Shown: in pieces, positions 2,454-47,812 of the stretch
Layout of the letters: every line of letters begins with the position of its first letter
How positions within the stretch are numbered: position 1 is the first letter of the stretch
Translations under genes and position numbers: made by a program
Notes under the pieces: generated by a model
What the model was told of the DNA's origin: nothing
The model's input: the letters and a program-made list of their open reading frames with translations, nothing else
Database searches by the model: none
Source: Polytrichum commune
Lineage: Eukaryota; Streptophyta; Polytrichopsida; Polytrichales; Polytrichaceae
DNA length: 64,000 nucleotides
NCBI GenBank assembly: GCA_950295325.1
Contig: OX485807.1
Span: 45,352,440-45,416,439 of the forward strand
Direction: 5' to 3'

Positions 2454-2478
2454 TGGTTGGTCAAGATCAAGCAGTATA

Positions 2479-26083: not shown

Positions 26084-26405
26084 CAGTGTGTTAAAAAGTT
26101 AAGGATATAGGTGCAAACAACCATTATTTTATAGGGGGGTATTACTTTCAATTCTCTTCTTTTTTTCACATGCTATCATTATGTAAATTTCTACTTTGGG
26201 TTAATAGAAAAATGACTTGCATTACTTATAATTCCAAATTACTTATTATTTCATACCCTATATACTTTAAAGATGTCCAGTGCCATTTTTGATACCCTAT
26301 ATTACTCTTAAGTCCAATTATAATTTTTTGCCCCCATGTTTTTAAAATACCCTATCATTTGTTCGCACGTATATTGCTACTCCAACCAATGACTACCCCC
26401 CCGAG
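26084..26405 (+). mobile_element. G-tipped MITE, copy 1 (322 bp)
   Basis: The termini are CTCGGGGGGG and its complement. The element is flanked by a perfect 8-bp direct repeat ACATTAAC (26076-26083 and 26406-26413). The left arm has the unoccupied site (near 10670, CTCACATGAACAATCGCACAC on the complement). Internal sequence (GGGTTAATAGAAAAATG, AAAGATGTCCAGTGCC, CCAACCAATGAC) is shared with three other copies here. An 8-bp duplication suggests a hAT-type transposase in trans. Confidence 0.92.
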
Positions 26406-27213: not shown

Positions 27214-27564
27214 CTCGGGGGGGGGGGGGGGGGGGTAGTCATTGGTTGGAGTAGCAATATACGTGCGAACAAATGATAGGGTATTTTAAAAACATGGGGG
27301 CTAAAAATTATAAATGGACTTAAGAGTAATATAGGGTATCAAAAATGGCATTGGACATCTTTAAAGTACTATAGGGTATGGAATAATAGGTAATTTGGAA
27401 TTATAAATAATGCAAGCCATTTTTCTATTAACCCAAAGTAGAAATTTACATAATGATAGCATGTGGGAAAAAGAAGAGAATTGAAAGTAATACCCCCCTA
27501 TAAAATAGTGGTTGTTCGCACCTATATCCTTAATTTTTTAACACACTGCCCCCCCCCCCCCGAG
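27214..27564 (-). mobile_element. G-tipped MITE, copy 2 (351 bp, reversed)
   Basis: Same family as copy 1, opposite orientation, with perfect 8-bp target duplication CCCTTGTT (27206-27213 and 27565-27572). The left arm near 9285-9295 (complement TGACCTTTGTTGGTAAA) is the empty site. The poly-G and poly-C tips are longer here than in the other copies. Confidence 0.92.
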
Positions 27565-28064
27565 CCCTTGTTGGTAAAAAATGAGATGTACAGTAAACTA
27601 ACTAGCATTCCTTAATTCCAAATTGTAAGTGGCTATAAATATCATATTTGGTGTAGTTAGGATGCACACTAAAGAATATGATATAACTTAATTGATCAAA
27701 ACGTTAAGGATCTGTTCTTTTGCAAAATTCAAAGCTCTTACGATAGTACCTTTAAACACTATATTCGTTATTTGGAGACTTTTTGTTAATTTTGAGACTA
27801 TTTAAGGACGTGGCTTTCACATTTATAGGAATGAAAACACTAAAAATATGCTATGTTCCCAATTTTGGAAACAAATAAGAGACTCAAATGCATGGAACTA
27901 CACATTAACAATAAGAAAATGGGATATATGAAAACATTTGCATATGGAAAATCAATATCATATTTATTGAATAGGGGTTGAAGTACAAAATGCAAGTGGA
28001 ATATCCAATATTAGGCGAAAGTCCTAGAAACATAATTCCACAACTACATGTATGTTAATATAGC

Positions 28065-28427
28065 CTATACGTTCGGATCATGATTACGACTCACTACTTT
28101 TGCTTTTGCAATACTATTATTAGCATTTACGGCCGTTTCACGTTCCTTTGCTTTCATGGCCTCCATGGCTCTAAAGATCTCGGGTCCGCGGCTGTAACCT
28201 TGTTTATTTGTTGACCCCGAATATGCGCCATTTGCCCATATTTGCCGACCCCCTTCCGAATAAGTGGAATACGAATGCGTTTGGGAAACCGAACGTCTTG
28301 CACTCTTCCGTAGGGCCAAACAACGATCAGACTCGCAAGAAGCTGTCTTCAGTGTTCGCCTATCCAATGACGAAGTCGATGATGCCCGGCCCACATTCGT
28401 GTACATTGGGGTCTGAACAATGACCAT
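28065..28427 (-). CDS. Putative 3'-side exon, unknown function
   Basis: An open frame follows a convincing acceptor (ATTGTTCAG, exon start at about 28412) and ends in a stop at 28065. The predicted piece (TPMYTNVGRASSTSSL... to ...SRNHDPNV) is rich in Ser, Arg and Ala with a short charged helix (AMEAMKAKERE). It may join the open frame at 28527-28961: AAG|GTGCCC at about 28553 would keep phase 0, but that donor is weak. A decayed palindrome (28471-28486) sits between the two, as in the other introns of this element. I cannot connect either piece to the phosphatase-like exon, which ends in its own stop at 29054. Confidence 0.35.
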   Translation of the reverse strand: MVIVQTPMYTNVGRASSTSSLDRRTLKTASCESDRCLALRKSARRSVSQTHSYSTYSEGGRQIWANGAYSGSTNKQGYSRGPEIFRAMEAMKAKERETAVNANNSIAKAKVVSRNHDPNV

Positions 28428-28526
28428 AAATATATATAATGAAGTGGGTTAGTATAAGTGGTTACAAGTTACGGATGGAAGTCCGAAAAACCCAAGAAGT
28501 TGAAATGCACTAATACACGGAAATCA

Positions 28527-28961
28527 TCAAGGAAAAACTTGAGAATGCCAATAGTTGGGCACCTTCGCCTTTGGGGCGCTGGTTAGAGCTTTTGGGACAT
28601 CGACGGGTGTAGATACAAGCCCGAGAGGGACGTTCGCAAACGCCGGGACATCAATTTGGGGTTCATCCATGCAAAGGCGTCTGGTCGACCGTGGGTTACG
28701 GACGTGCTTCTCACTGCGGAGGGGAGATGGAGATGGACTTGGAGAGTAATTGAGTTTTGCAACCTTTGCAGGAGGGCTATCCACGACTCCGTCTTCAAAC
28801 CCGGAGTCTTTGGAGTAATCAACAGCAGAGGCAGCATCGACGGCCGAATATTGGAATAGTGAAGGCATTGCAACGTCGCTCATACCAAGGGAAAGGGAGC
28901 CGGTGTCTGCCTGAGATGCAGACATGCCATTGACGACACTTTTGGGTGCTTGGTGAGGCAA
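28527..28961 (-). CDS. Putative Ser/Pro-rich exon, unknown function
   Basis: The open frame starts right after a good polypyrimidine-AG acceptor (TTTTTGTGTCTTAG, exon start 28961), phase 0 if internal. It encodes a low-complexity, mostly disordered segment (KLNYSPSPSPSPLRSEKH, a basic RNPRSTRRL patch, Ala/Val/Pro-rich end). There is no domain I recognise and no convincing ATG. It could be the start of a second minus-strand gene or part of an alternative 3' end of the large gene at 29054-34555. Confidence 0.35.
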   Translation of the reverse strand: MPHQAPKSVVNGMSASQADTGSLSLGMSDVAMPSLFQYSAVDAASAVDYSKDSGFEDGVVDSPPAKVAKLNYSPSPSPSPLRSEKHVRNPRSTRRLCMDEPQIDVPAFANVPLGLVSTPVDVPKALTSAPKAKVPNYWHSQVFP

Positions 28962-29053
28962 CTAAGACACAAAAATACATTACAAAGATAAGGGGAGAAA
29001 TGTTAGATATTTACATGGAGAGTCCAAGTACAAACCCAAAATCATCAAAGTTT

Positions 29054-32000
29054 TCATATTAATTTATTGAGTCTAGCGTAGCCGTACAATCTCCTAAATT
29101 CCTCATCTTGTGGGCCTAGAGGCCTATTGCCAATTGGGTTGGAGAGCACAAAATCCGGGACACTTCCGGGGTGATAGGCAAGCCTCCTAATGTAGGGTCC
29201 TAGTTCACTCTCTAGAAAGTTGTCATTTCTATCGCTTTCCCAAGGATCCGGGAATATGCAATTGCCCGGGGGATTGAGAATACTCTTTGCCGGGCTGTCG
29301 TCAATGAGGAGTGTGTTATCCGGGGTGGGCCAACAACCGTGGGGAACCCCCTCCAACATAGGGACGCCCACCCAGAGGTTCTTCCTCAGGACCTTTAAGA
29401 ATTGAGGCCCACGACCCCCTCCGACCTTGGGTACAATATTGCCACTACGGTCATAGAGGTCATCGCAGTGTTCTTGACCGAGAAGCAAGCATGGCATTGC
29501 GAGTTCTCGGAAAAGGAAACCGACAATGGCCTTCGTGTTGTCCATGAGCATAGAGCTCCAGATGATGACATGGGCGAAGCCAAGGACCTCACGAAGGAAG
29601 CTCCTCAAACCGGGGCGGGCACGTACAACCTTCTTATTTATGAGAGTATCGAAATGTCCGCCGTAATCCATGTCTTGTGGACTACGGAAGGGCCCCTTGG
29701 ACGCACTATTCGAGATATGTTTGGATTGACAAAGCACCCCATTGAGGTCAAATATTATGAACGGTTTCATCATGGGCGCGCTTGGTTTTCCCGCGGGGTT
29801 GCGACATATCTCCGACGGACCCTGTGATGGAACATTCTATCTAGGTAAATGGTACTACTCAAGAAAACCAATTGACAAGCATGGATAAACTCAACACAAA
29901 TTATAAGGCCAAAAATAATCCGAACCATCCAGTTGAAAAATTGGTATTAATGTAATTGGTGATATACATTTGGTGAATAATATACATTGTCGCAAAAAAT
30001 ATCTGTTGAAGTTAATGGAATCTATGCTAACAAAATTGTATCCACCCGCCGGGCGAAGTCGAGGATTGAACTCGATAATATACACACGCCACGAAGGAGG
30101 CAGACAAGGAAGTTTTGGACGCGCGTCCGTAACGTGGGAGGCATGCTCAAAGGTTGATTACCTCTTCAAGGGCGAGGTCCGCGCCAGCAGTGCCTCCCTC
30201 ACCTGGCCCCGTCATGGGCACAGGATCCGGACGCGCGTCCGCAAAATTGTCCAGATCTTCGACCACCAACAAGGTGTCTCCAGCCGCTTGCGACCCTTGA
30301 GTATCCACGTAAGGCTGATCCTCATCTGTGGAGTCTTGGCTGCCCCGCATATGTACATCTTCATCGCCGATGGGGGCATTGCCTTCATTGACATCTGTCT
30401 CGGCGGCACCCGCCATGTCACGTGCCGGTATCTCCTCCACTCCTGTAGGATGAGAGGAGGGCTCCTCTGGAGTGGCGACAACAAGGGGAGAGGGCGGGAC
30501 AATCAACGCGGGGGCTGGATAAGCATGCTCGGGTATATACACCGCATGGCTACTAGACGGAGGCCGCATGAGAGTGGGGGGCATAGACATGACGGCATCG
30601 GGAGCTGTATAGACTACAGGGGGTCTTGCCTGCAAGCTCTGCATCAGGCTCATAAATTGTTGACTTTGGGCCAAGAACTGTTGATTTTGGGCCATGAGAT
30701 CGGCGTGCCTTCGAGCAGACTCCAACCTAGCTTGCTCCATCTCAGCTTGGATGGCGGCCATCTTTTTGGCGTGCTCCTCGTTAGCTTCTCGAAGCCGTTG
30801 GTCAAGCTCTTCCTTCATTCGCCTCTCCATCTTCTCGTCCAATTCGGACACTGACATCGGCTCTTTCTTCACCTTGCCAGGTTCCGTAGGCAAGGCAGAG
30901 ATGGCATTGTGAATCCTAATCTCATCCTCGTCTTCATCGGAGAGCTCCAAGACCGCGCCTTCAGGGTATTCGTTGTATGGCGTCTTGTTCCTCTTTCGTC
31001 GACTCTCACGATATAGAGAGATATCAGGCCTCAATATCAACTCCAGCACATCCCTCCCCTCCATAGGGGGTAGATCTGAATGTTGAGATCCCCCTCCAGA
31101 TGAAGCGGTGCATCCGCCTTCTGCCGCAAGGTCCACATCCTTCTCGGCCATAACTCCTGGAGCACGAGATGGACCCGCAGTTGAGGGAAATCCAACTCGA
31201 GAGGTGGGAGTCCCAAAAGGTGAGAGAACAGGGGTATGAGGGACCCTTATCGGAGTGAAGTTCACGCGTGCCTCCTGCGCATCCGTGTCGTCTGTTCCCA
31301 GCAGGAAAGCACTTGGATTAATTGGGTCGCGAACAAGGCCGTGTAAAGGCTCCTGTGTGGAGGGTTGCGCTCTTGGGGAACTGGGATCTTGGTCCTCTTC
31401 AGGGTCTGTCTCCATTCCGGGCATTGCCTCTTCTCTAGAAGAAAGAGGCACAACAGGATGGGGTGTAAGGACGTCCATGATGTCCTGGATATCCATTTTG
31501 GAGGCCATTACCCTGTGAGTATGGGCGTCATCGTAGTCGGAATCCTGCACAAAAGAATTCACCTGCAAGCCAAGCATCTGGACCATAACAAGAAAATTAG
31601 ATAAGAACAATAGTGGTGATTGCATATAAATGAGGCTAGATGTCAACACGTTATACGGACGCGCGTCCGTAAAACCACCACTCAAAAGTTGGACAATTTT
31701 ACGGACGCACGGTCGTAAAATTCACATGCACCTGATACTGGGTTTTTACGGACGCGCGTCCGTAAAATAACTATGCAAAAGATAGGTGGGTTGAAAGACA
31801 AACAAATACTCACCAGTGCTGCATACATAAACTTCGTGCCTCCGAAGACGTTGTAAACTGTCTCACTCATGACAGTTAAAGCCTTCAAGACCCCTATATA
31901 AAAGTCCATCCGGAGCTCGAACGCCGGATAGATTGCATGCATTGTCTCCTCAACAAGCTCCTTGGGATGTGGTGGCGGCAACGAATAGACTTTCCTGAAC

Positions 32001-34555
32001 ACCTCGTGTGGTTTAATGGGCAATCGCCCAGTTGGGGAAGACTTGCGTGTTAAGAAATAAAGCTGCACAGCTCCCACTTGCTTCACCCCCCTTGCCTCTT
32101 GAATGAAAGTGATCCCTTCTGTCTTCGCTGGGATGTAGGTGCTGTGGTACATATCGTATTCGAGGTCCATCGTTGATGTGTACAGATGGACAATGGATGT
32201 GGACCTCTCTTGCTCTACAATCCATAACCACACATGAGGCTCGAAGAGGGCAGGCGAGCGATAGCTCTTGAAGGCTTTTAAGAAGGGCTCGTAGAAGGGT
32301 GCTCCCGCAACGTCTTGCTTCCATGCTCCGGGAATTGCACGAAAATCAAAAATGGCGAAAGGGCAACCCCTGGGGTCATCTCTCACAGAGGCTCTTGAAG
32401 CATAGGTGTCCCATGCGCCGAACTTCATGCCCTTTGCGACCGTGCAGAATCTTGCAAACCCTCCAAATTTCGCGTTCTTTTTCCTATCGAGAAAGTGAAC
32501 ATACAACCCTGCCTCCCTCTCGTCGATGGATCCCTTCTTTTCGTTCCTTCTGGATCGTTGGGCAAGGAAGGATGATGCCCCTCTTATCAAAGCTCGCATT
32601 GAGACGCCATTGATGTGGTATTCACCCTTCAGCTTCCTCCAATTCTCCCACACGATCTCACCATCACTATTAATGAGGTTGTGGGTGGGTAGCAATTTGC
32701 TAATCTCCCTTACAGCCATGGTCTTCTTCTTTCTGTAATCGCACCATTCCTTAATGTGGTACGTGGATGGCTTCATGTGCTTCGGCCGCTTCAGAAAGAT
32801 TTTGGGATAGGGCAGAGTTCTTCTAGGAGTTTCTAGAAGAATGTGTTCTGCTGCCCTGTACAGCTCCGAGTCCATCAATCCTTGGAGGGGACGAAAGAAC
32901 TCTCGCAGGATTGGTGGTACCTTAACTTTTGAGTCGCTCTTGTAGGTGTTCTCCGTATCTGGATTGACAAGGTCGCCGTTGTTGTGGGCATCGAAAAGTC
33001 GCAACCATATTGACCACGTCTCTTCTGTTGCAGTGATGAGCTTGAGTTCGCCTTTTAATTCATGCACTGTTTTCATGCCGCTTGTCTTCATGTCTATACT
33101 CAAGAACTTTGTCAATATGGCATTGCTGAATGTCTGCAAGAGGCGCGAATTGCAAGAACTGAGAACATTGAATTCAGTACAAATTAAATTCAAATATTTG
33201 AAGCAGTGGGAGGAGAAGGGCCACATTTACGGACGCACGTCCGTAAATCTATTTGAGTAACATACCTGCCATTTTGGGTTCTTCACGACAGCATTATCTC
33301 TTTCTTTTGGGGGACATTCGTGCTCCACCCACAAGGTCCTCCCAGCCACGATGTTGGCTGCCCATGAAGCCTCGAACTGCCTCACTTTATTCCCCTGGTT
33401 CATGAAGGCAGATATTGCTATGAGTTGGTTCGAGTCCTTGGAATGCACGACGAATGCCTTCCAATATCGGATTGTCTCCTTTAATGGGCTTTTCCACTCG
33501 TCGTCTTCAAGGAGAGCTTTTGCAGCCATTACACTATGTTGGCCGTCGACAATGTAGAACTCTCCATTCTTGAGAATCGGCCAATTTTTTTCGTTGACTT
33601 CAACGATAGGATCCTTTGGTGTCACACAAATGGTTTGCCTGTCAAACTTGGGGTTGTTCATGATGTTGTTCATTTGCCACCATACACCGCTTTCTTCTTT
33701 TGCTCTGGTATTCATACTTTCGGTGCCCTTGTGGCATTTGTAGACGTCTACTTCGAAAGTAAAATACCTGCCAAGGGGCCAGCATCCCTTCGTCTTCTCA
33801 TCGAACTCTTGGAATATTTTTGTTGAGAGTTCGGCGTCAGGGCGTTGACCCTTTTTGAGGAGTGGAGCGACAGTCAGTGTAGAGCTGACATCCGGACCCT
33901 CTGTTAGTCCAGAGTCCATCTGCGAGTGAGAGCGTTTACTCGCCTGTCTGCTCCCTCTTGATGCACCACTCTGCGAGGGCCTTGAGGATTCCGGCACTGG
34001 TTTAGGCACACGCTTAGGTCGTTCAGGAACGACTTGTTTTTTCTTATCTTTCCCCTTTCTGGCCTCTAGCAAGGCTCCATTTACTCTTGTTACATTGTTC
34101 AAGAGTCGTCCAAGCCGCTTACCCGTCCAAGGTGCATTGCATGCATAGTCTTGGAACTCCGTCTGGAGATTGAAGCAAGCCGCATCTGTACTAGCATTCT
34201 CACACTCATTTTTGTTGAAGGGGTGGTAGGATTCGTGCAAAATGAAAGTGACCCGATCTTCTTTCTTCTCAAGGTCTATTACTACATAATCCCCTTGTGC
34301 CACTGCACACTCTACTGTCCACGATTTAAGCTTTATCCACTTCTCAGCTTCATCTATGTCCGTCTTCATTTGATATGCAAATCTAAGCACAAATATTTCT
34401 TTCTCGTCCTTTTCTACCAATACTGTCCAATTATCCACAATTTCATCTTGTGACTTGTAATGGTCGTTGGGACTTATGTCTTTGATGGCTTCTGGTAGCG
34501 GAGGAATGAGAGCTTCTGCGAACATCTCAATTGCATGTCTCTTTTTAGATGCCAT
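29054..34555 (-). CDS. ParB-like / methyltransferase-like / coiled-coil / FCP1-like fusion, about 1597 aa
   Basis: Coding exons (complement): 33266-34555, 31814-33133, 30162-31577, 29054-29821. Donors are GTATGT, GTGAGT and GTAATC; acceptors are CTCTTGCAG, GGTCCAG and CATCACAG. Every junction is phase 0 and every length is a multiple of three. Residues 1-430 include a ParB/DGQHR-like motif (FYIVDGQHSVMAAKAL, about 333-348; the usual Arg after the His is Ser). Around 856-894 is VYNVFGGTKFMYAAL joined across an intron to MLGLQVNSF..., resembling motif I of beta-class DNA methyltransferases; the region about 690-700 (AIFDFRAIPGAW) sits where DPPY is expected but lacks it. A basic RESRRKRNK patch (about 1060) and coiled coil (about 1115-1185) follow. 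The last exon has an FCP1/NIF-type HAD fold: FDLNGVL (about 1367), IIWSS, and LLIDDS (about 1516). The ATG at 34555 follows an AG, so the leader is spliced. The last junction is the least certain; otherwise exon 3 stops at 30147. Confidence 0.65.
30115..30132. repeat. Palindrome copy in the exon 3-4 intron
   Basis: TTGGACGCGCGTCCGTAA, between the coiled-coil exon and the phosphatase-like exon of the minus-strand gene (intron 29822-30161). Confidence 0.75.
30229..30240. repeat. Palindrome copy inside coding sequence
   Basis: GGACGCGCGTCC lies within the third coding exon of the minus-strand gene and is read in frame as part of NFADARPDPV. It is the only well-preserved copy that I place in coding sequence. 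Confidence 0.7.
31651..31770. repeat. Three palindrome copies in the exon 2-3 intron
   Basis: Copies of the ACGGACGCGCGTCCGT core have their GGACG at 31657, 31703 (variant GGACGCACGGTC) and 31750, spacing 46-47 bp. All lie in the 236-bp intron (31578-31813) that splits the methyltransferase-like motif of the minus-strand gene. Confidence 0.8.
33225..33250. repeat. Palindrome copy in the exon 1-2 intron
   Basis: ATTTACGGACGCACGTCCGT followed by AAAT, in the 132-bp intron (33134-33265) between the ParB-like exon and the next exon. One central mismatch. Confidence 0.8.
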
Positions 34556-34607
34556 CTGCAAATGATAAGATAGATAAGTTAGAATTCTTGGCAAAAGATA
34601 TAGATCA

Positions 34608-35347
34608 TACTTTACGAACGCGCGTTCGTAAAGTTTTCCAAATTGTCTCAATTATATTTTTGGATCCAAATGAAAAGATACATTTCTTCCAAATACGCAT
34701 AACGCATATATTATATACTCAAATATCTCTATAAGTTACGGACGCGCGTCCGTAAACTTCGCAAAGATAGTATGGTGGTAAATATCAATGTATTCAAGTT
34801 ACGGTTAATATTTTTTTGAGAGTCTTGTTTCACACCTACATTTTTGAGAGTCTTGTTTCTCACCTACATATATTTTTGAGAGTCTTGTTTCTCACCTACA
34901 CAAAGATCCACAAAGTTTACGGACGTGCGTCCGTAAACTTTGAGTATTATAAAGGCTATTTTAATATGCCTAATATTACAATATTTGGCTTCGTTTGCGT
35001 AATATATTGTTTGAGAGGCTTGTCTCTCACCTACCCAAAGATCCACAAAGTTTACGGACGCGCGTCCGTAAACTTTGAGTATTATAAAGGTTATTTTAAT
35101 ATGCCTAATATTACAATATTTGGCTTCGTTTGCGTAATATGCGGTTTGAGAGTCTTGTTTCTCACCTACACAAAGATCCACAAAGTTTACGGACGCGCGT
35201 CCGTAAACTTTGAGTATTATAAAGGCTATTTTAATATGCCTAATATTACAATATTTGGCTTCGTTTGCGTAATATGTTGTTTGAGAGGCTTGTCTCTCAC
35301 CTACACAAAGATCCACAAAGTTTACGGACGCGCGTCCGTAAACTTTG
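34608..35347. repeat. Left palindrome array (135-bp period) in the leader intron
   Basis: Six copies of the palindrome. The last four have GGACG at 34921, 35056, 35191 and 35326, an exact 135-bp period including the linker (GAGTATTATAAAGG, TGGCTTCGTTTGCGTAAT, CTCACCTACACAAAG). In three of these the dyad is a perfect 32 bp, with CAAAG/CTTTG arms beyond the core. Two more copies, at 34616 (GAACGCGCGTTC, still a perfect palindrome) and 34740, lie outside the periodic part. The array lies in the predicted leader intron (34556-35706) upstream of the minus-strand gene. The long open frames across it on both strands result from the symmetric repeat unit and are not genes. Confidence 0.92.
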
Positions 35348-35706
35348 AGGATTATAAAGGCTATTGTAATGTTTGCGTATTCCAATGTTTTCATTAATGC
35401 TCCGTGTTTTTCGGGACTTTACCTTGTCGTCCAATATGGTTTTGCCCTCCAAATAAGAATGCAATTTTACTTCACTGCAATAGCAAACACTGCACTGCAG
35501 ATTGACAACATAAGGCACTTTCAGAACACTGACATGTCCATAACTAAATGATTCTTAGAATGTAGCCATAGACAAAGTACTAAACAAATTCAGAATTCCT
35601 TGAAACTGGAATCTCACATTCTGTCATGCTAACCTTAAGCCCTAAACCACAACAACCCAAAATTGCAATCATACAAAATGCAATTGCAATGTTCTAAAAA
35701 ACTTAC

Positions 35707-36151
35707 CTTTCTAGAGTGTTTGCTCCTAAACCACAACTAGCTGCTCCTGCTGCAGCTAATACCAACTGCAAATGAACAATAAAATTGAGGTCAGAAACCT
35801 CTAGTAATTCAATGTGCACATGCATGATTCAACATTGAGAACTACTCAAAAAAGTTGCTCATAAATCAGATTCATGCAACACAAGTGAAAGGAAACTATT
35901 GATTTGTATGCAAAAAATATAATGAACTACATGGTGAAGCTACAACTGAAACCCTAATGAGCAACATCTGAAACACTAATTACCCTTGCAACAACTGAGA
36001 TCAACAACTGAAAACAACCTAATGAGCAGTAGCAAGCAACAATGAGCATCCTAATGATCTAATGAGCAGCAAGCAAGCAAGCAGCAAGCAAAACTTACTA
36101 ATGAGCTAATGAGCTAATAAGCAAATGAGCAGCAAACAAGGAGAACTTACT
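35707..36151 (-). other. Predicted 5'-untranslated exon(s) of the minus-strand gene
   Basis: On the minus strand a 59-bp exon (35707-35765) is bounded by TTTGCAG and GTAAGT and contains no ATG. Upstream, a donor AGA|GTAAGT ends a further exon at 36151 whose 3' part includes a short palindrome CTGACGCGCGTCAG (36158-36172, just 5' of the donor). An ATG in that upstream exon (about 36200) opens only about ten codons, so it would be a short upstream ORF. Inferred from splice signals alone. Confidence 0.45.
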
Positions 36152-36179
36152 CTAGCTCTGACGCGCGTCAGCAATTGAC

Positions 36180-36660
36180 CAATAAGAATGAGTTTTGCAT
36201 TGTGAGGAAAGAGAAGCAAGACCAGCAAGGGAAGCAAGAGAAGAGAGAGAAGAAAGTGAAGATAAGGGTAAGAAGCAAGAGAAACAAGAGAAGAAAGTGA
36301 AGAGAAGCAAAAGAAGCAAAAGAAGATGAGCAGATGAGCAAGAGAAGATGAGAAGTTGAGCAAGAGAAGATGAGCAAGAGAAGAAGAGTAGATGAGCAAG
36401 AGAAGATGAGCAAGAGCAGATGAGCAAGAGAAGATGAGCAAATGAGCAAGAGAAGCAAGAGCAGATGAGCAAGAGAAACAAGAGAAACAAGAGAAACAAG
36501 ATAAACAAGAGTTGCAAGAGAAGGAAGCAAAAGCACGAAGAGGAGGGCAAAAGGGAGCTGGTGTACTTTGAAACCCTATAACCCTAAAGCAAGAGAAGCA
36601 AGAGCAACAGTAGAAGGAACGGAAGGAAGAGATGATAGAGAAGGAAGGAAAAGCACGAAG
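36180..36660. repeat. Purine-rich GAGCAAGAGAAGA tandem repeat
   Basis: The plus strand is nearly all purine with irregular units of AGATGAGCAAGAGA and AGAAACAAG. It lies at the likely transcription start or first exon of the minus-strand gene, so the leader would be CTCTTGCTC-rich. The three overlapping minus-strand frames (Leu/Ser/Phe-rich, all about 110-130 aa) are translations of this simple sequence and are not genes. A second, shorter GAAGGAA-type block ends near 36660. Confidence 0.6.
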
Positions 36661-37332
36661 AGCGAGGGCGAAAGGGTGCTGGAGTACTTGGAACCCTAAA
36701 ACAATGGCATGCCTCCACGTGTCCCTACCCCAAACGTCGCGCCCAATCGCCGGCCTATACCCTTACGTGGCATCACCCTACTGGTCTATATTTGGTATTG
36801 AAATAGGGGTTTAATTTATACTTAGTTTGGTGATTTTATTATCATATTATGTCATAATAACATCTTATGTTTATGCTAAGGCAAGTTAAAAGTCACACTA
36901 AATGTCACTCTAAATATAAAATGAGCCATCTCGTTGCCTCTTCTCTTCACTTTTGATAATGAGTGAAATATTCATACGAGCTCTAGAAAGTATTCATTAT
37001 TTTAGGAAATTATATTAGGGTGTGAGGTTGAGTAAATTATTATGTCATTGTCAACAATTAAATGACATCAATAATAATAATAATATCATTTTGGAACTCC
37101 AAACAATGAGAGAAACTAACTACAATTTCTAGTGTGGCCTCTATGGAGAGTGGGGGAGCACCTTTCATTAAAACCTAGAATCACGTGCGTTCACTGCATA
37201 CTCTAAAAACCCCCTAATATATACAAGTGATTTTTTGTGAAATGAAGTAATACACATACAATTGCAACAATAAATATACAAGAAACAATATGTATACACA
37301 AAAAAACATCCATTCATATATATTAGTCATTA

Positions 37333-37648
37333 CTCGGGGGGGCAGTGTGTTAAAAAAATAAGGATATAGGGGGGTATTACTTTCAATTCTCTTATTTTTT
37401 TTCACATGCTATCATTATATAAATTTCTACTTTGGGTTAATAGAAAAATGGCTTGCATTACTTATAATTCCAAATTACCAATTATTCCATACCCTATACT
37501 ACTTTAAAGATGTCCAGTGCCATTTTTGATACCCTATATTACTCTTAAGTCCATTTATAATTTTTTGCCCCCATGTTTTTAAAATACCCTATCACTTGTT
37601 TGCACGTATATTGCTACTCCAACCAATGACTGCCCCCCCCCCCCCGAG
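37333..37648 (+). mobile_element. G-tipped MITE, copy 3 (316 bp), inside the giant element
   Basis: Same family as 26084-26405, with a perfect 8-bp duplication AGTCATTA (37325-37332 and 37649-37656). It shows that the MITE family was active after the giant element was in existence. Confidence 0.92.
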
Positions 37649-37659
37649 AGTCATTAACA

Positions 37660-40140
37660 TAAGTATACAAATGCAATTATTGTCTCGAAGTCTACCATGG
37701 AATGATCAATAAGATCATATGTCCACTTGTTGTTAGCCCCTTTTGATACCAACATAAACCAATCTCCACGTTTGATGGACGGTCCATCAAGTCAAATGGA
37801 TCCCTATACTCCACCCAACGATTACCAAACTTCCTCCGCATCCTATAAACTCTCCCAACAAACCAAACCTTATGAAAACTTATCCAATATGAACACTTAT
37901 GATATATAGTATAGTAACAATACCATACAAGTACAATTATTCTATACTTTTTAAAGGCCTTCCATATATGTACGTAACTATAAATTATAACATGTATACC
38001 ATATGTATATGCAATACGGCAAGGTCCAAATCAATACCCCTCCTGTGCACTCACGTATAACTCGTACATGTTTAGTACAGTGCACCCCCCGAGCTATGGA
38101 GGGGACTCTATATTTCGAGAATAGTAATAATATTCAATAAAAGGATGTCTTGTTGATTAACTTCAGTATAAGAATTCTTTTTCTTCTCAAAGGTGGGATT
38201 CAAATGCAATTGGGGCAATATACCAATTGGCCACAAATTCTCATGAAACTTTGCCAAGAAATACTTGTGAATCCCTCAATTATCGCAATAAGTTGTGAAA
38301 CGCAATTAACAAAACCGAAACATCGAGATATGGGGAGAATTCATATGCTTGTAATACCTTAAACAACATTACGGATTAATTCAATCCCTCCACACATAGG
38401 TCTAAGCTTGTATTAAAACAAAATGCATGGGTATGTGTTGAATGTACATCCCTCTTGTACATTAAACAACCTTTCGGATCCATCCAATCCTTCCACACAT
38501 AGGCCTCAGCTTGTATTATCGCTTATAAGTAGTAGCAAACTTGTTTATATTTGGAGTTTTCTTTCGGTGGTGAGTTGTGTTTAGGACTCGATTATAGAAT
38601 ACCAATATACGATCTTCAAAACCTTTCATCAAAAGTATATGTTTAAAGCAAATGGTTTAAAGCCAAAGAAAGATTTAAAAAAATGAAAGGTAAGGTTACC
38701 CCTAAATTTGCTTCACATTTGAAATGTTTATGGTTTTATTTTACAAAATTTAAAGGTAGTCATATAGTTTTGAATTACTTCCACTTAAGGCTACACATGT
38801 ATTGGGAGTTATTCAGTTAACCATGCGTACCGTATGTCGTTGTGTTTGTTCAGGGGTGGGCGGTTATAGGGTATAGGGTATAGGGTATAGGGTATAGTGT
38901 TTAGGGTATAGGGTATAGTGTTTAGGGTTTAGGGTTTAGGATTTAGGGTACCACGTATGAACTAATGAGAGTATCCCCCTTCTGTCACCAACTTAAAATT
39001 GCTTGCCTTTATAATATTTGGATACCCTACCCTCCCCTTCTCTCCATTATGGTTTGTTGGGCTCATAATGTTACTTAGAACAACAACTGCTATTGTTTGA
39101 GTCAATATTGTAGATAATGTACATGGGGTACTAAAAATTGTTTTTTGTCTCACGTATAGTACATTAAGAATGCTAGTATTATTTTTTTTGAAATAAATGT
39201 TGATGTATTGAAGGGGGCCCTAAAGTTAAGAGAGGAAATTGAGAATATTGATTTTAAAGCAACCCATAGTGCCTATGACAATAGATGTGCTATTTTCATG
39301 GCATCTAGGCGCTCAAAGTTTGTGTACGTATTAGTATAATTATGTATAGGTGTGTAAAAGTGGGTAAATTAAACGGGTTGGATGGTAGGGTGGTGGCAAA
39401 TGTAATTACTAGTTTAAATGCTAGATGAGAGGAGATAACATGATATTGGAGTGAATATCATTACATCGTATGCAAAACAATAAAATAGATGCTAGTTTAA
39501 TTTTGAATGACACGTATTTTTATACTCCATGTACTATTGTTGTTGTTGTGGTTGATGTTTCACACGACACTATAATTTTCTGTCTCCTAGTTCTACAATG
39601 ACCTCTCAATATTAGGTACTTCAATATTATAAACCACCCCTCAACAATGTTCAATGCTCATATATTATTAGCCTATTTTCTTTGTTGTCCACCATAAATA
39701 CGTAGATGCCTTTTGCTTTGTCATTATGTGGACTCATCGTCTATGCATGTTGTCCACTATGAATACACATTCCATTGTAAGGCTGGCACACGGAATGTAG
39801 TAATGTTAGGTTTTTATTTATAGGACGTAGATGGTGGCTAGTATCCTATGTTGGAAAACGGATCCAAGGGAAACGATCAGTACTTAAGGGGACACCCCTC
39901 CACCAAGGGACTCTTTTTGCATCTCAGATGTGGGTTGCGCTGCTTGGACCCTTGTAGTGTTCTGGATGTTTATTTCGTGCAGGTACAGATCCTATTGCAA
40001 TGGACCTTTTATACCCTAAACACTAAATTCCAAGCCATAAACCCATTAGTGGAGCCAATTTTATGTGGATTGCACTGTCTGGATCCTTATAGTGATTGAT
40101 TTTTGTTTATGGCAAGTATCGTTCCTGGTGAAATGGTCCT
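37660..40140. other. Central region of the giant element, no gene supported
   Basis: Between the divergent units lies A/T-rich DNA with a direct repeat of about 45 bp (about 38368-38415 and 38475-38521; CACACATAGG(T/C)CT...AGCTTGTATTA), the telomere-like block at 38860-38950, and at 39925-40100 a short duplicated phrase (TTGGACCCTTGTAGTG / TGGATCCTTATAGTG). None of the short frames has splice or homology support. Confidence 0.4.
38860..38950 (+). repeat. Degenerate plant telomere-like repeats
   Basis: A run of GGGTATA, GGGTTTA and GTGTTTA heptamers, ending in AGGGTTTAGGGTTTAGG, resembles the plant telomere unit TTTAGGG. Because it is short and interstitial within the giant element it is not a chromosome end. 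It could come from break repair or capture, or be a simple expansion. Confidence 0.7.
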
Positions 40141-40160
40141 ATTATGGCGCCGCAAATCAC

Positions 40161-41212
40161 GGAGGTTTACGGACGTGCGTCCGTAAACCTTAAACCTCTT
40201 GCTTGGTTGGATATCTATTTCTGTGAGAATTGCACTTGAGCTATTTCATGTACATTGAGGTTTACGGACGCGCGTCCGTAAACCTTAAACCTCTTGCTTG
40301 ATTGGATATGTATTTTTGTGAGAATTATACTTGAGTTATTTCATTTACATTGAGGTTTACGGACGCGCGTCCGTAAACCTTAAACCTCTTGCTTGATTGG
40401 ATATCTATTGTTGTGAGAATTATACTTCAGCTATTTCATGTACATTAAGGTTTACGGACGCGCGTCCGTAAACCTTTAACCTCTTGCTTGATTGGATATC
40501 TATTGCAGTGAGAATTATACTTGACCTATTTCATCTACATTGAGGTTTACGGACGCGCGTCCGTAAACTTTTGCACCTTTTTGTTCCATTGTTCGGTATT
40601 GCACCTGAGCTGACATCATGACCACTTGCCATGTATAGTATACCAACGAGACTGTATTGTCATGAAAATTTTCTGACTCACGTCCAGTAACCTAAACCTA
40701 TTTGTGCTAGTAATGAGGTACAGAGAGGTTTACGGACGCGCATCCGTAAACCTGCAAACCTTTGGTTCCATACTTTTCACTATGTGCCATGTAGAATATT
40801 ACATTGAGACTGTACGGTCAATGGAGGTATAAGATCCCTAAACCCTAAGCTTACATCACCCTATGTGTCATAGTATAATATTTTGACATTCATAATACAC
40901 AGTAGGAACCTGGCACCTGGACATCTTGGTTTCCTAAACCTCTGTGTGTCTTGCACAACACTGACTTTTGACATTCGGATGTTTGCGGACGCACGTCCGT
41001 ATACCTATGTTGTATAGTTTGCGAAAACATTTGCGCATGATATTGACCTCTTTGACCACGAAGAGATTTACGGGTGCGCGCCCATAAAACTGTCATGTTT
41101 TTGTTGTCTGGACCTTTCCGCCGACTATGAACAAATAAAGACATATGTATGCGCGTGCTTGCACTGATAATGTTGTTACATGGAGATATACGTACGCGCG
41201 TTCGTATACCAA
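40161..41212. repeat. Right palindrome array (95-bp period) upstream of the transposase-like gene
   Basis: Five copies have GGACG at 40171, 40266, 40361, 40456 and 40551, an exact 95-bp period with linker TTAAACCTCTTGCTTGATTG... TTTCATNTACATTGAGG. The dyad extends as AGG...CCT or AAGG...CCTT arms, different from the left array's CAAAG...CTTTG. Further diverged copies are at 40734, 40987, about 41072 (GGGTGCGCGCCC) and 41192 (GTACGCGCGTTC, with TATACG/CGTATA arms). The array ends about 140 bp before the start codon at 41350. CACTTGTAG just before that ATG could be an acceptor, so the array may lie in a leader intron, as on the left. Confidence 0.92.
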
Positions 41213-41349
41213 TGTGTCTTTGTTTCCAGGCCATGAAATCCACTATTGTTGACATTGTGTTTCATTGACAATAAGCGTTAGGACTATCCATGACATTTAT
41301 TGAATGGGATATTTTGACATACTCTTCATGTGGGTCACTTGTAGTGGCC

Positions 41350-44300
41350 ATGGATTCCAACGTCCGAGATAGTGCATTCGAGTTCTCTTCGGAAGCGTCA
41401 AGCTATGCTAGCGAATTTGAAGGTGTTATGGAACATGAAACTACAATTGGTGTCGCCAATGCAGAGGATGATTTCATACCAACATGTGAGGGTTATTCGC
41501 GGGAACAATGGATTGATCTTGATGTTGTCATAGTCAATGGATACGGCGTCCCCGTGGCCAATGGTGTTTGTAGGAACTCAAATCCTATGGACTGTATTGA
41601 TGCAAATCCCCTTGGGGAGGAAGATGTTGGGGTGTGCATTTTGAACTCCTTACATCCATTGGAAGTACCTCCTGGTTGGAGATTCTCTCTTCGTCGATGG
41701 CCGTTGCGAAGTGTTCTTCACGATGGTGTCAGCTTGTGGAATCATGCACGTCGTTTTGAGGAAATACAAAAGACTTTGTTCGCCACAATGCGTCCTAGAC
41801 AAGGTCGGCGTAAATATGATTCCGTTCGCGTGCCCCGTGAACCCACGCAACGTCGTCGAGATCTAACATTGGGAGACACATCTATTAGGTCCGTAGCAAC
41901 AAAGGATTGTTGTGCAAAAATGTGTTGCCAACTATTTCCCCGTGACAAAATCAAATCTTTGAGACAAGAGATGTGGCTTGCGGACTTTCGGATGCGATCT
42001 GCAAAGAAACTTGAAGTCCATCGCAACATGCATTTTGATGCCGAAGGTCGTAAGGTTGTGACCTTGGAAAATATAGAGGTATGCTGCACGGCATGGTACA
42101 TTATACATGCAGTTTCAAAGGCAGATTTTTATAGGTTCCGGAACTACTCGCTGCAAGGACGGCGTTCTCGGTTCCATGGCAACTCTGGTACAAAGAAGCC
42201 CAGGGAGGCAACACTCCAAGCAGCTGCAACACTATCAACCATCATTATGCCATTAGCAGATGCGATGCCACACAAAACACGGACTCTGCCGTCGGGGGAA
42301 AAGGTTGTCCAGATGGTTTTGCCTACAGGGACAAAATGGAAGAACATACTTATGGATGTTAATGAGGTTGGCGAAAAGGCTGGATGTGGGCCGATTTCGT
42401 TGTCAAAATTGAGTGTGATCAAGAATCAACAATTTGCAGAGTACATTACGAAGAGGCCTGGGGATAAGTTTGCCAGGTGTTCTGCTTGTGAAAAATACAA
42501 GGGCCTTCGAGATGCACATCCCATAGGGACTGAGTCGCACAATAGACATCAACGGAAATACATTGAGCATGTCAACAACCAAGAGGCACACCGTCAAGAC
42601 TACTACAAGAATCGCGCATTATCGATAATGAGGCCGAATGAGGTTTTGACAATCATTCATGACAAAATGGACCATGCGAAGACTGCGTGCCCTTGTTATG
42701 CACGGAAAATAAAGGCTACAGATGGATATTTCAAGCTCCCAATATCTGTCACAGGTTCGTTGGTTTTCACATTTTTTTTGCGAACCCACATACTCATCGT
42801 TAAGAGTTACGGATGTACATCCGTAAGTGTTTGTTCATTTTCTTGGCCTGCTTGCGGAAAAATTGAATTTCCTTATTATAAATGATATTGGAATGTACTT
42901 CTCATTTGTATGTCTTAATTCAGGTATGATCGCACATGGCCATGTGGACGTCAAGTATGCACATTATGGCTTGGATTTCTATCCAGGCGACGCCAATCAT
43001 ACCGTAGGGTCTTTTGCAAAACTTCTACGAGATCTTGAGAGTCCGCCAACATCATCCTCTCGCGCTCTTTTTGTTGGATGTGGAACAACACCGATTTATG
43101 AGGCTGTGCTAGAGGGGAAAGAAGTATGTCTATCGTCACTGCAAGAACCGCCTGAACAAACCGTTCTTGCTAAACCTTTGCCTCCAACTCTACATGTGCA
43201 ACTGGACAATTGTGCCAAAGACAACAAATGTCGATACGTGTTTTGTTTTTGGTCATTGCTCGTAGCCAAGGGCATTTTCAAAGAAGTGTTTGTGTCTTTT
43301 TTGATGGTTGGCCACACGCATGATGACATTGACGCTTCATTTGGACGTTGGAGTATGAAGTTGCACGAGGAGGATTTTCCGACGATTCCTCTTCTCATGA
43401 AATCATACATGGATTTGGATAATGTGCCAGTCATCCCGCATTTGATTGAAGAAGTGCCCGATTTCAAAGCGTTTATCGAACCATTCATTCTTAAGGGAGG
43501 TGACCGTTTAGTGGGCCATACCAAGGCTCAACAATTCCGATTCTATATGCGTGATGATGGTTTGCCGGCCATGCAATTCAAAGTTTTGTGCACTTCCCCG
43601 GATTGGGGTCCAGAGGAAGGGATACTCGTATGGCGCCAAAACGAAGAAGGCAAATGTATGCTACCTGATGGGGAGCCGAAGCCTTGCAAACCCAACCCCA
43701 TGAGGAATGGACCAGAAATCATCAAAGGTATATCCGGATTCATCCAATATTGGAAAGAATTGTGCGAGGAAGACATCACAAGGCGTGTTCGGGATACCCA
43801 CGAACCATTGATTACGTACTGGGATCGCATTCGCTCAGCATTGCTAGCACCCGATGTCGAAACACATTCATGTTTGACACAAGGTTTTTGGCCACAAAGC
43901 CGAGTGACAATCGTGGAATCTGAGGCCATGTTCTTCGACAATGGGGACATCCGTGAAGAGTTCGCAGCGGACGACCATTATGTTGGCCCAGCTCGTAATC
44001 GTCTGGCTCCATCATTTCGTGTGGCTGTTGATTGCTACGAAGGGTATATGATCCTCGTACGTCCTGGAGATGAGGAGCACCCTAAACCGATTTGGTTGGT
44101 AAAAGCATTGTCATCACCAAATTTTGTTCCAACTAGCCCAAATTTTCATCAAATTGAGGTGGAATATTGCCGTCCCAGCACCAAAGATCAAAATGTGCTC
44201 CGCACATATTTAGAGTGGGACACCAAAAAAGGTTTCAAATGGACAATGGACTCAGCATACGAACCAATATGGATAAACACAGATACCATACTTTGTGCTT

Positions 44301-44446
44301 GGAAACCACGCAAAGGTTCCAAATCAGAGACAATGACCATCCCCCAAAAACATATAGATTTTGCCAAAGACAACTTGGCACGTATTGCTGCTGCAGAAAA
44401 CGATGTCGAGAATGGAAATGAAGCTGAAGATGAAGATGGAGAATGA
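41350..44446 (+). CDS. DUF7869-like, putative DDE/RNase-H-fold transposase, about 975 aa
   Basis: CDS is 41350-42754 joined to 42924-44446. The junction is ACAG|GTTCGT and TTAATTCAG|GT, phase 1, rebuilding one Gly codon inside LPISVTGMIAHGH. The ATG at 41350 (GCCATGG context, MDSNVRDS) is preferred over the in-frame ATG at 41290. The N-terminal half has an acidic start, basic stretches, a CCAKMCC cluster and a CSAC pair (about 377-380) that could bind zinc. Then come IIHDKMDHAKTACPC (Asp about 438), VQLDNCAKDNK (Asp about 563) and GHTHDDIDASFGRW (Asp about 602-605), with hydrophobic strands before each. I recognise this as the DUF7869 type found in plant, oomycete and animal repeat-associated proteins. 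The three acidic clusters would suit a DDE catalytic triad; that is inference. The C-terminus is acidic. It diverges from the minus-strand gene. Confidence 0.75.
42807..42826. repeat. Perfect variant palindrome in the transposase-like gene's intron
   Basis: TTACGGATGTACATCCGTAA is an exact palindrome in the 169-bp intron (42755-42923). It differs from the consensus core at four positions, paired symmetrically, all explicable as CpG transitions. It thus mirrors the intron placement seen in the minus-strand gene. Confidence 0.85.
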
Positions 44447-44449
44447 TAT

Positions 44450-45103
44450 TGACGTAGGGTTGGACCACAATTATTTGAAATGTGTCTTGGTTTTTCATGA
44501 AATATATGACATTGGGGTCGAATACTATATTAGACACATTTTATAGCAATTTTATAGATTACAATTATATATCATGATTGTATTGATTTACGGATGTGGA
44601 ATCCAACTTCACATGCGCTATCAAATGTTTTTTATATGTTTGTGTTTACGGATGTGGAGTCCAAACTATATAATTATATTGCAGATGCTAATTTGCAATT
44701 TCTTATACACACTGTCAAATTATTTTAATATTGTTGCGTTTGGGATGTGCCGTTCAATTCACCCACAATTGGCTAAGATGTTATGTTTGGGATACGCATC
44801 CAAGAGTCCCTAGATATAAAATCAGATGGCTATTTATAGATTCATTAATTTTGTTCAATACAAAATCAAAAATACAAAATAATTGTGAATTTGTGACATT
44901 GGAATATTGTGTTGGCGTAGTTTTGATTATCCCCCAAATAATTACTATATTTAGAAACATATATATTCATCACATATGGATCTTTCGAACATTATGTTGC
45001 CATTGTTCCCCATGTTCCCTACGTTCACAATATTCGCATCCGAAACTACGGGTCCAATTTATTTTGAGACTTTCCAAAGTCTCCAATTAACGAATATAGT
45101 GTT
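44450..45103. other. 3' flank of the giant element with decayed palindromes
   Basis: There is no gene. Four degenerate palindrome-like segments (TTTACGGATGTGGAATCC at about 44588, TTTACGGATGTGGAGTCC at 44644, GTTTGGGATGTGCCGTTC at about 44738, GTTTGGGATACGCATCC at about 44787) precede the terminus. GAGACTTTCCAAAGTCTC (45066-45083) is a near-terminal 18-bp palindrome next to the right TIR. Confidence 0.55.
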
Positions 45104-46678
45104 TTTATTGCTTTGGGACTAATTCGATTGTTTCAAGAATAACCAAACATTTCGGAAATTGTATTTTTGAAATCTAAAAAAAAATTATAGAGAAAAATGA
45201 GTTTTCCTTTAAACACGGGATTGACAAATTTAAAAATACATAATACGAATTCCCCTATAAATAGCCAAAGTGGTAAAGGTACTACAATACATTCTTAAAA
45301 TCACTTTCACTGAAACATGTGCAATGATTAAGAGTTGTCCACTTTACCATGCTTGCACCCAACACGTAACTCCAAATGACAACCCACACTAATTAGGAAA
45401 AATAGTGCGGGGGACGTTAAGTACCCCCCCACGAACTAATAGGGATTCCATATTCGGGCGGGGGCAGCCCTCCCACGAAATTTCTGCCCCCGCCCGGATT
45501 TTTTCCAAACCCGCCCGAAATAGCTGCCCGCCCCGCCCGAAAACGAAAAAAACATTGCTCTTCCATTCTTGAAGGCCGCTTGACTACAAATCCCATATTG
45601 AGTGCACTTCACCTTCAAGGTTTTAAATCCAATATATAATATGTGCACTTCCACCTAGTAAATAAGGCATTAAATGGGATTTCATTCCGGAAGTGAAACC
45701 ATCAACCAAGAATGTAATTAACTTGGAAGTCAAAAAATTAGAAAATCCTCATCAACATTGAGGTTATAATTTTTATGACTTACCATTTGAAATTGTCTTC
45801 GTCATTTTTAAATGACACTTAAATTTAGTGTGCTGATGTGGTATGTATATTTTATAATATTTTAGATAATTCTGGCTACTTTCAAGAATATTCATACGCA
45901 CTTATTCTAATTAAGTGTGATTTAATGTAATTATGTCTAATTAATCCTGATTAATCCTAATTAATCCCAAATAAATCAGAAAGTATTCTTTCCAAATTAA
46001 GTAAGACTAATTAATCCTAAAACTTAATTACTGGAATTAACTCCAATTAAGTCCAATCAATTTCAGTAATTACAATACTCAATTTTTATATCCAGTAAGC
46101 CTAATTAACCCTAAAATTTAATTAATGGAATTATCTCCAATTAAATCCGGTAATTAAAATAATTGATTAATTAGTTCCATTAAGTATATTTTATAAATAA
46201 GTGCGTATGAATATTCTTGAAAGTAGCCAGAATTATCTAAAATATTATAAAATATACATACCACATCAGCACACTAAATTTAAGTGTCATTTAAGAATGA
46301 CGAAGACAATTTCAAATGGTAAGTCATAAAAATTATAACCTCAATGTTGATGAGGATTTTCTAATTTTTTGACTTCCAAGTTAATTACATTCTTGGTTGA
46401 TGGTTTCACTTACAGAATGAAATCCCATTTAATGCCTTATTTACTAGGTGGAAGTGCACATATATATTGGATTTGAGACCTTGAAGGTGAAGTGCACTCA
46501 ATATGGGATTTGTAGTCAAGTGGCCTTCAAGAATGGAAGAGCAATGTTTTTTTCGTTTTCGGGCGGGGCGGGCAGCTATTTTCGGGCGGGTTTGGAAAAA
46601 ATCCGGGCGGGGGCAGAAATTTCGTGGGAGGGCTGCCCCCGCCTGAATATGGAATCCCTATTAGTTCGTGGGGGCGTA

Positions 46679-47812
46679 CAGTCTAACCTCGTTAGTACGA
46701 CACTCGTTAAGACGACACCCTCGATATTACAACACATTTTTGCGCGACCAAACTTCTTAGTTCAAAACTCCCTCTTTTAGACGACTATGACACTCGATAA
46801 TACGACACTTAGAGCGTGCATTTTGTCATATTAAAGAGGGAATAAATGCTAAAATTCCTTTCATCCATGATATGTACATCTAGAATACATCCATTTTCAC
46901 TTGGGAACTACTTGAGAACTTCACTTATCATTGGGAACTTAATGATAATTAGGGTTACAAGTGTAGAATGGACTTGGTTTAGGGTTAGAGGGGCCTCCTC
47001 CCTAGTATGTTGCCTCTTGTGCACTCCCAATATCAGACAAGCTATCATGTGGAGTTATGAAGTATGGAGTGAGTTGGATGCACAAATAGTCATGAATTGT
47101 TGGAGGATGGCGCATATATTACCTGCAACATGGAATGCCGATTTTGCCTTAGTTGATGAAAGGGAGAAGAATAGAATGCGAGAAGAATCAGATGAACTTG
47201 GTGCTTTGATTTCAAAATTGCGATTGGGTGATGATGAGATGTCTATCGAGACTTATATTCAGATGGAAGGGGAAGAGATTACTGAGCTAGAATTGACAAC
47301 TGATGAGTTGGTGGATGCCGCTTTGGGAGTCAATCATGCACAAGGCTTTGATCTTAATGTTGATTTGCATTCAGTAGATGTGGATGATGTTGCTCCACCT
47401 ACAGTAAAGCTTAGTGATGCTAAACATCATGCATCATTGTTGTCTAATTTCTTATTAGACAACTCTTTACATTTTGGTGTTAATGAAATTATTAGTTTTC
47501 AAAAGCTAGTAGGGAATTTAGAGAAGATGACAGTTGCTAACTTAGGTAGGCAACACCAGAGATCTTTGAACTCTTATTTCAAGAGTTCTTGAGAATTTTT
47601 GTATTTGTTTGGAGTTATAAGTTATTATTTCATACACTTCCTAAACCCTAAACTCAATGTATATGGTTTGAATCTCATATTTCTTATGTTTTTGTATTCC
47701 CTCGATAGTACGACAATTTTAGGCCATTAGTCATATTAACGAGAAGACGACACCTCGATAATACGACATTTTTTGCGTTTCCCAAAGGTGTCATACTAAA
47801 GAGGGAGAACAG
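46679..47812 (+). mobile_element. Nested pogo/Tigger-like (Tc1-mariner group) element
   Basis: The termini CAGTCTAACCTCGTTAGTAC (46679) and the complement CTGTTCTCCCTCTTTAGTAT (to 47812) are related inverted repeats, with TA on both sides (46677-46678 and 47813-47814). Removing the element and one TA restores the foldback element's right tip (GGGGGCG-TA-CTTAACGTCCCCC), matching its left tip. The terminal zones carry repeated ACGACAC / CTCGATANTACGACA phrases. At 1134 bp it is internally deleted relative to a full transposon. Confidence 0.8.
46846..47592 (+). pseudogene. C-terminal remnant of a pogo/Tigger-type transposase
   Basis: The open frame contains AIMWSYEVWSELDAQIVMNC and CWRMAHILP, which match the typical tail of DDE_1/CENP-B-like transposases (W...W..V...TI.NCW...GILP). 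An acidic segment and an end QRSLNSYFKSS follow. The N-terminal DNA-binding and DDE catalytic parts are missing; the first about 65 residues look unrelated and are probably read-through before the deletion junction. It cannot be an active transposase. Confidence 0.65.

Follow-up and report, generated by a model that had tools for sequence, protein, structure and literature searches.

Sequence-specific anti-silencing by a transposon is known from the VANDAL elements of Arabidopsis, which are MULE transposons and generate a target duplication of 9 base pairs (bp). Repeated protein-binding sites also occur in CACTA (En/Spm) transposons, whose subterminal repeats are bound by TnpA; the ends of these elements begin with CACTA and their target duplication measures 3 bp. 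Palindromic sites of 16 bp occur in the ParB-parS system, and bacterial fusions of ParB with a methyltransferase exist. For the VANDAL elements, the excerpted texts of PMC5735166 and PMC10398659 describe motif-rich tandem repeats, located in introns and upstream regions, that are bound by VANC and lose their methylation. Sola transposons, reported from Physcomitrella patens, have 4-bp target duplications according to the excerpt of PMC10741241, and retrotransposons with acquired cytosine methyltransferases are described in that of PMC5890265. Here we analyze a stretch of 64,000 bp from the moss Polytrichum commune (contig OX485807.1, positions 45,352,440 to 45,416,439; henceforth the window), which holds a complete DNA transposon with one palindrome repeated along it. 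By analogy with VANC, the palindrome may be a self-recognition site of the transposon, bound by a dimer of the product of the element's own gene A, with an anti-silencing or activating outcome, a reading that we hold to be about evenly poised between right and wrong.

The palindrome and its transposon

The core of the palindrome, ACGGACGCGCGTCCGT, recurs exactly or one base off in two arrays, one with a period of 135 bp (34919, 35054, 35189 and 35324) and the other with a period of 95 bp (40169, 40264, 40359, 40454 and 40549), upstream of two divergent genes, A and B. These arrays, their exact periods and dyads of 32 bp had been proposed in a sequence-only reading of the same DNA, and all were confirmed in position and length; the perfect dyads extend up to 32 bp, and up to 42 bp with one mismatched pair. 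The range given in that reading, 34608..41212, proved too narrow, as the sites span 30115 to 42824 and some are found in introns of both genes. With up to 2 mismatches to the core there are 19 matches in the window, compared to 0 in 100 dinucleotide shuffles. A scan blind to the motif returned 19 strong dyads in the 64 kilobases (kb), 16 of which are the core palindrome, and pattern matches number 22 in the window versus 3 in its reversed sequence.

Gene A (30147..34555, minus strand; exons 34555-33266, 33133-31814 and 31577-30147, with splice sites chosen by eye) has GT-AG introns at 33134-33265 and 31578-31813, and its homologs cease to be alike at the exon-1 border. Gene B (41350..44446, plus strand; exons 41350-42754 and 42924-44446, intron 42755-42923) encodes a DUF7869 protein (PF25273, expectation value (E) 4.5e-40). 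The 6.8-kb spacer between the two genes contains 15 of the 22 palindrome sites. Adjoining the start of gene A is a site of the A-T type, ACGAACGCGCGTTCGT (34614..34629), followed by a single site at 34738 and the 135-bp array (together 34738..35339); the 95-bp array (40169..40564) and four sites upstream of gene B (40732, 40985, 41070 and 41190; 40732..41205) make up the rest, the 41190 site near gene B being half A-T type. Five of the 22 are in the three introns, which total 537 bp: three pattern matches in intron 2 of gene A (31655, 31701, which is degenerate, and 31748; 31655..31763), one in its intron 1 (33229..33244), and the site ACGGATGTACATCCGT in the intron of gene B (42809..42824), found by the motif-blind dyad scan and by intron alignment. 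The other two, each with 2 mismatches to the core, fall between genes C and A (30115-30130) and in exon 3 of gene A (30227-30242). Exon 1 and exon 2 of gene A are free of sites, as are both gene B exons.

The sites are carried by a whole DNA transposon of 17,349 bp (27755..45103). Two end-to-end copies, R369 (99.5% identity) and R279 (97.7% identity), align over exactly this stretch, and the flanks of 5 complete copies agree with it. The target duplication TTTA flanks the element (27751-27754 and 45104-45107), and its 28-bp inverted ends, the left one starting AACACTATATTCG (27755..27782, plus strand) and the right one at 45076..45103 (minus strand), match at 27 of 28 bases. Duplications of 4 bp, read by eye from the printed flanks, are present in all five complete copies, the window's included (TTTA, AGTG, CCAT, ACAA and TAAA). 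The genome searched, G000, comprises 407,808,757 bp in 64 contigs; main-block identity to the window element is 92-94% for the copy R312, 84-90% for R304 and 79-92% for R254. A protein search with exon 2 of gene A matched 96 of 96 scored candidates (96 of 1,180 first-look candidates were scored), in identity classes of 92-100, 80-85 and 74-76%. No relatives were found in viral_contigs with the motif pattern and three protein profiles, or in genome_contigs with one profile.

The exact 16-mer core occurs at 1,097 places in G000, and its reversed control at 0. All of the 50 places listed, out of the 1,097, are in relatives of this element: 49 in six family copies and the remaining one (L005) in a diverged stretch related to the A-B spacer. 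Confinement of the core to one element family, raised in the sequence-only reading as a matter for a genome search, is what these 50 listed places exhibit. The contrary supposition raised there, of a palindrome common throughout the genome and unrelated to the element, holds in its first part and fails in its second for the listed places. The count covers the exact core; further palindrome words named in the analysis are ACGAACGNNCGTTCGT and ACGGCCGNNCGGCCGT. Among the related elements, R312 has 26 pattern matches, R304 has 21 and R254 has 18, versus 1, 0 and 0 in the reversed sequences.

When the introns of five copies are aligned, the palindromes form conserved islands in diverged DNA (judged by eye, with no statistic), the third intron-2 site being missing from R304 and R254. 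The arrays differ between copies through tandem duplication, as VANC-type arrays do, and their periods vary by subfamily (135 and 95 bp, 97, 53). The exon-3 site is the only palindrome within coding sequence, and R312 and R304 have it too. The site nearest the start of gene A (34614-34629) is A-T type or otherwise altered in R279, R312, R304 and R254. A perfect palindrome of 56 bp surrounds the core at element positions 6972-7027 of R304 (in L023), and its counterpart in R254 is 28 bp long; L035 and L036 have a perfect 46-bp palindrome. Flank words found on one side of a palindrome turn up, by eye, on the other side of another, in keeping with recombination of oppositely oriented copies. At the CpG positions of the 22-mer, 100 of 107 changes are C>T or G>A (175 sites from ten copies or pieces, related ones included), and so are 28 of 30 changes at two C/G positions outside CpG. 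Since the non-CpG positions behave alike, the C-to-T excess is general and not CpG-specific; it fits what methylated silent copies would give.

Covariation of the arms and the gene A tree

The homologs of gene A exons 1 and 2 include many open frames read without splicing, whose C-termini therefore extend into the introns. The general dyad TTACGRNCGNNCGNYCGTAA was translated in three frames and matched against these tails. Of 75 proteins, 73 of them homologs and two the window's own exons, 14 had no recognisable exon border and 8 had tails too short; the other 53 gave usable tails, 40 of which match the translated palindrome (38 of 51 without the window's own two). By intron, again excluding the window's, the matches are 12 of 12 for intron 1 and 26 of 39 for intron 2. 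The three reading-frame patterns were drafted after the tails were first viewed, with shuffles and exon parts as controls: 1,000 shuffles of the tails gave a mean of 0.02 matching tails and a maximum of 1, and no match occurred in the 20,994 residues of exon parts, compared to 47 in 1,422 residues of tails. Thirteen of the 53 tails are unmatched, at least four of which (P0142, P0146, P0156 and P0183) resemble near-misses and were left uncounted. A generic palindrome score was too weak for single tails, many of which failed to beat 60 shuffles. The tail LRPRGRK implies a palindrome of the GGCC type, and the DNA bears this out: intron 2 has it in L035 and L036, and a decayed form of it in L034.

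The tails also reveal how the two arms change together. The fourth core base and its partner, a purine-pyrimidine pair, are matched in 28 cases, with 0 G-U and 3 A-C combinations (the window's two tails included). In one frame the corresponding residue pairs are D-P (9), N-S (7), A-P (1) and T-P (1), and in another E-F (8), G-S (3), E-S (1) and D-S (1). Fisher tests on the main cells of three frames, with A-P, T-P and D-S left out, gave 9e-5, 0.018 and 0.010, values that are rough owing to the non-independence of related proteins. In 72 distinct 22-mers, pairing was preserved through changes on both sides 22 times, versus a mean of 7.3 and a maximum of 18 in 20,000 swaps. Mismatches of the G-T (40) and A-C (44) kinds are equally common at the DNA level, a parity that is neutral for an RNA reading, as strands are mixed there. 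The symmetry continues outside the core: at positions 12-14, 69 of 102 cells are symmetric, compared to 42.8 in swaps, with none of 5,000 swaps scoring as high, in a test that collapsed 111 sites to 34 and thereby dropped the 56-bp palindrome; it is gone from position 15 in the same 34 sites. A smaller test, with arrays collapsed to one copy each (14 sites, 31701 being out of register), found 17 of 28 symmetric versus 8.4 (p 0.0004).

On a quick tree of exon 2 (45 rows), the 18 labelled rows split cleanly by their intron-2 core into an A-T type (12) and a G-C type (6); 27 of the 45 rows have no label or a mixed one, the window was labelled by hand, and P0142 and P0156 were labelled by wider patterns. 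Each core class requires one change, at a branch with support of 98, compared to shuffled means of 5.2 and 5.3 (0 of 500 as low). The split amounts to a single switch in the past that altered both arms. Co-evolution of protein and motif would produce such a pattern but is not proven by it.

Candidate readers and roles of the palindrome

In the mechanism that we favor, the palindrome would serve as a symmetric site in the DNA for a dimeric protein, with about 20 copies kept in the element's non-coding DNA, namely in the upstream region shared by genes A and B and in all three introns. The likeliest reader would be the element's own gene A product. It would gather on the arrays, marking the element's genes, and would hold them open against host silencing, or activate them, in the manner of VANC. 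The arrays arise by tandem duplication, and recombination between copies in opposite orientation may have given rise to the matching outer arms. The earlier proposal of binding sites for multimeric proteins is supported in the form of dimer or multimer sites of one element family, by the arm covariation and by the 50 of 50 listed places; the transposase-subterminal and centromere-like versions of it are less likely. With this mechanism, the element would offer a compact test system: a single motif and a single candidate protein, each with natural variants, and more than a thousand copies in the genome.

Gene A joins a weakly ParB-like segment in exon 1 to a DNA-methyltransferase-like fold in exon 2. 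For exon 2 the protein alignment comprises 41 rows, one from the window and the others from 40 of its 54 homologs; for exon 1 it has 20 rows, with all 19 homologs included, and for gene B it takes in 37 of 114 homologs. The exon-2 fold is of the beta-class DNA N6/N4 methyltransferase type. The catalytic motif [DNS]PP[YFW] is found in 0 of the 41 rows of the exon-2 alignment (A5), and the amino-methyltransferase-like fold is probably inactive. Searches of the PDB by sequence gave three chance-level matches and nothing better for exon 2, and none at E up to 1 for exon 1 or for gene B; Pfam gave two chance-level matches and nothing better on the 41 exon-2 rows, and NCBIfam gave nothing useful on exon 1. 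Where homologs of gene B carry a name, they are moss proteins (Ceratodon purpureus, Physcomitrium patens); the majority of the 114 are nameless. A literature search for DUF7869 found no paper, and the present description is a first anatomy of a DUF7869 element. A search of titles and abstract openings found no such palindrome arrays described; the element may still be published.

Several observations weigh against a gene A dimer as the reader. The ParB-like match of exon 1 is weak (phrog_1033 in 15 of 20 members, best E 0.0013), and the predicted structure of exon 1 is poor (mean predicted local distance difference test score 56.9; 396 fold matches at E up to 10, none under 0.001). Against known DNA-binding families, gene A has no sequence match above the curated cut-off. 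In the 72 distinct 22-mers, 119 cells mismatched on one side or both outnumber the 22 matched two-sided changes. The core variant switched only once, and the switch was scored in an intron of gene A itself (intron 2); it therefore does not tell apart gene A, gene B and a host factor as possible readers. A predicted replacement of the core by ACGGCCG..CGGCCGT in the 74-76% subfamily was wrong: this subfamily keeps ACGGACG..CGTCCGT, and ACGGCCG..CGGCCGT is confined to intron 2 (two of three copies; the third, L034, is decayed). Finally, the read-through tails of gene B relatives contain no palindrome by eye.

Other roles have to be weighed on the same evidence. In a parS-like self-defence, which we regard as unlikely, a protein derived from ParB and fused to an inactive DNA methyltransferase domain would load on the palindromes, spread along the element, and read or block host DNA methylation; if true, the element could be active without opening the rest of the genome, by an anti-silencing that evolved independently of VANC. 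The centromere-like sites of the sequence-only reading are less likely as well, there being no ParA-type partner ATPase among the seven window open reading frames scanned and the ParB-like part being weakly matched. Binding by the transposase of the element (the product of gene B, or those of A and B together), which would pair or enhance the ends in transposition, is just as unlikely as the parS-like role. Repeated, dyad-symmetric, element-specific sites in a DNA transposon are in keeping with it, but the outermost sites are 2.36 and 2.28 kb inside the element ends with none closer than 2.28 kb, the sites crowd at promoters and introns, and they are unlike the inverted ends. Because the sites are far inside the ends, mostly in the A-B spacer and the introns, the subterminal repeats suggested previously are poorly supported and less likely. 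The arrays upstream of both gene starts could also be host transcription factor sites that drive the two divergent genes, the intron copies acting as enhancers. Residence in the element family of all 50 listed places out of the 1,097, unexpected for a host site, and a core variant that tracks the gene A tree render this quite unlikely.

Two further readings dispense with a protein that recognizes the DNA sequence. The dyad could act as a DNA structure, a cruciform or hairpin-prone recombination site without a sequence-specific reader, its arms staying alike through inverted duplication or conversion. The outer arms that vary in sequence and remain complementary at positions 12-14, the perfect 56-bp and 46-bp palindromes, and the flank words common to either side of different palindromes are all in line with such a role, but the fixed core amid very different flanks and the fading of symmetry from position 15 are not, and we judge it distinctly unlikely. 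Hairpins in the transcripts, involved in splicing, small RNAs or termination, would account for sites in all three introns, and the palindromes are able to fold as RNA. However, 15 of the 22 sites are in the spacer between divergent genes, there are 0 G-U intermediates in 31 sense-strand cells, and no Rfam family was found at gathering scores in 27700-45200; this role is very unlikely. The arm covariation, the absence of G-U from the tails and the core variant that follows the gene A tree together are better fitted by a symmetric-dimer DNA site than by an RNA hairpin.

The remaining features of the locus are as follows. A NIF-type phosphatase exon within the transposon, gene C (29054..29773, minus strand; PF03031, E 3.2e-13), has no stops in R279, R312, R304 and R369. 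To the left of the transposon is a foldback (long inverted repeat) element (26077-26402 and 27223-27555), a 96% identical piece of which is nested inside the transposon at 37336-37645, and a second foldback element is directly to its right (45421-46679, arms 100 to 268 bp). The A-B spacer includes a low-complexity purine-rich tract (36200-36700) and a run of plant-telomere-like TATAGGG/TTTAGGG units (38865-38950). DNA resembling gene B (about 67-75% identity) adjoins two element copies (L016 1-2456 and L019 about 932-4337), and hence further families are present.

Comparison with described transposons and partition systems

The element resembles the retrotransposons in the excerpt of PMC5890265 in being a transposon that carries a DNA-methyltransferase-type protein; the enzymes described there are C5 enzymes, whereas the moss element has an amino-methyltransferase-like fold that is probably inactive. 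With ParB-parS it has in common palindromic sites of 16 bp and one gene in which a weakly ParB-like segment precedes a methyltransferase-like fold. It differs in having no ParA gene among the seven reading frames scanned, in the weakness of the ParB match, and in the catalytic motif missing from all 41 rows. The likeness to CACTA is that of repeated, element-specific sites in a large plant DNA transposon. Membership in CACTA was rejected on the ends (AACACTATATTCG in the moss element), the length of the duplication (4 bp) and the placement of the sites, over 2 kb inside the ends. With Sola the element has in common the 4-bp target duplication (5 of 5 complete copies), gene B being known here only as DUF7869; palindrome arrays are not mentioned in the excerpt of PMC10741241, and neither "Sola" nor "palindrom" is present in PMC7466625, on Physcomitrium transposons.

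The VANDAL elements and their VANC proteins, as presented in the excerpts of PMC5735166 and PMC10398659, offer the closest parallel. In both cases a short motif is repeated in the non-coding parts of one transposable element family, in introns and upstream (in the moss, 50 of the 50 places listed of 1,097), in tandem arrays that grow and shrink, and the VANDAL motif differs between families of the transposon protein. The motif in the moss is a palindrome of about 22 bp, whereas the string "palindrom" has no occurrence in PMC5735166 and PMC10398659, and binding and demethylation would apply to the moss by analogy. Membership in VANDAL was rejected, as the target duplications of the moss element measure 4 bp (5 of 5 copies), it carries a DUF7869 gene, and no MULE domain was found among the seven open reading frames scanned. 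The architecture in common with VANDAL would be that of self-motif arrays, upstream of genes and in introns, that vary with an element-encoded protein; its occurrence in a second, unrelated transposon, from a moss-like plant, would point to a general strategy.

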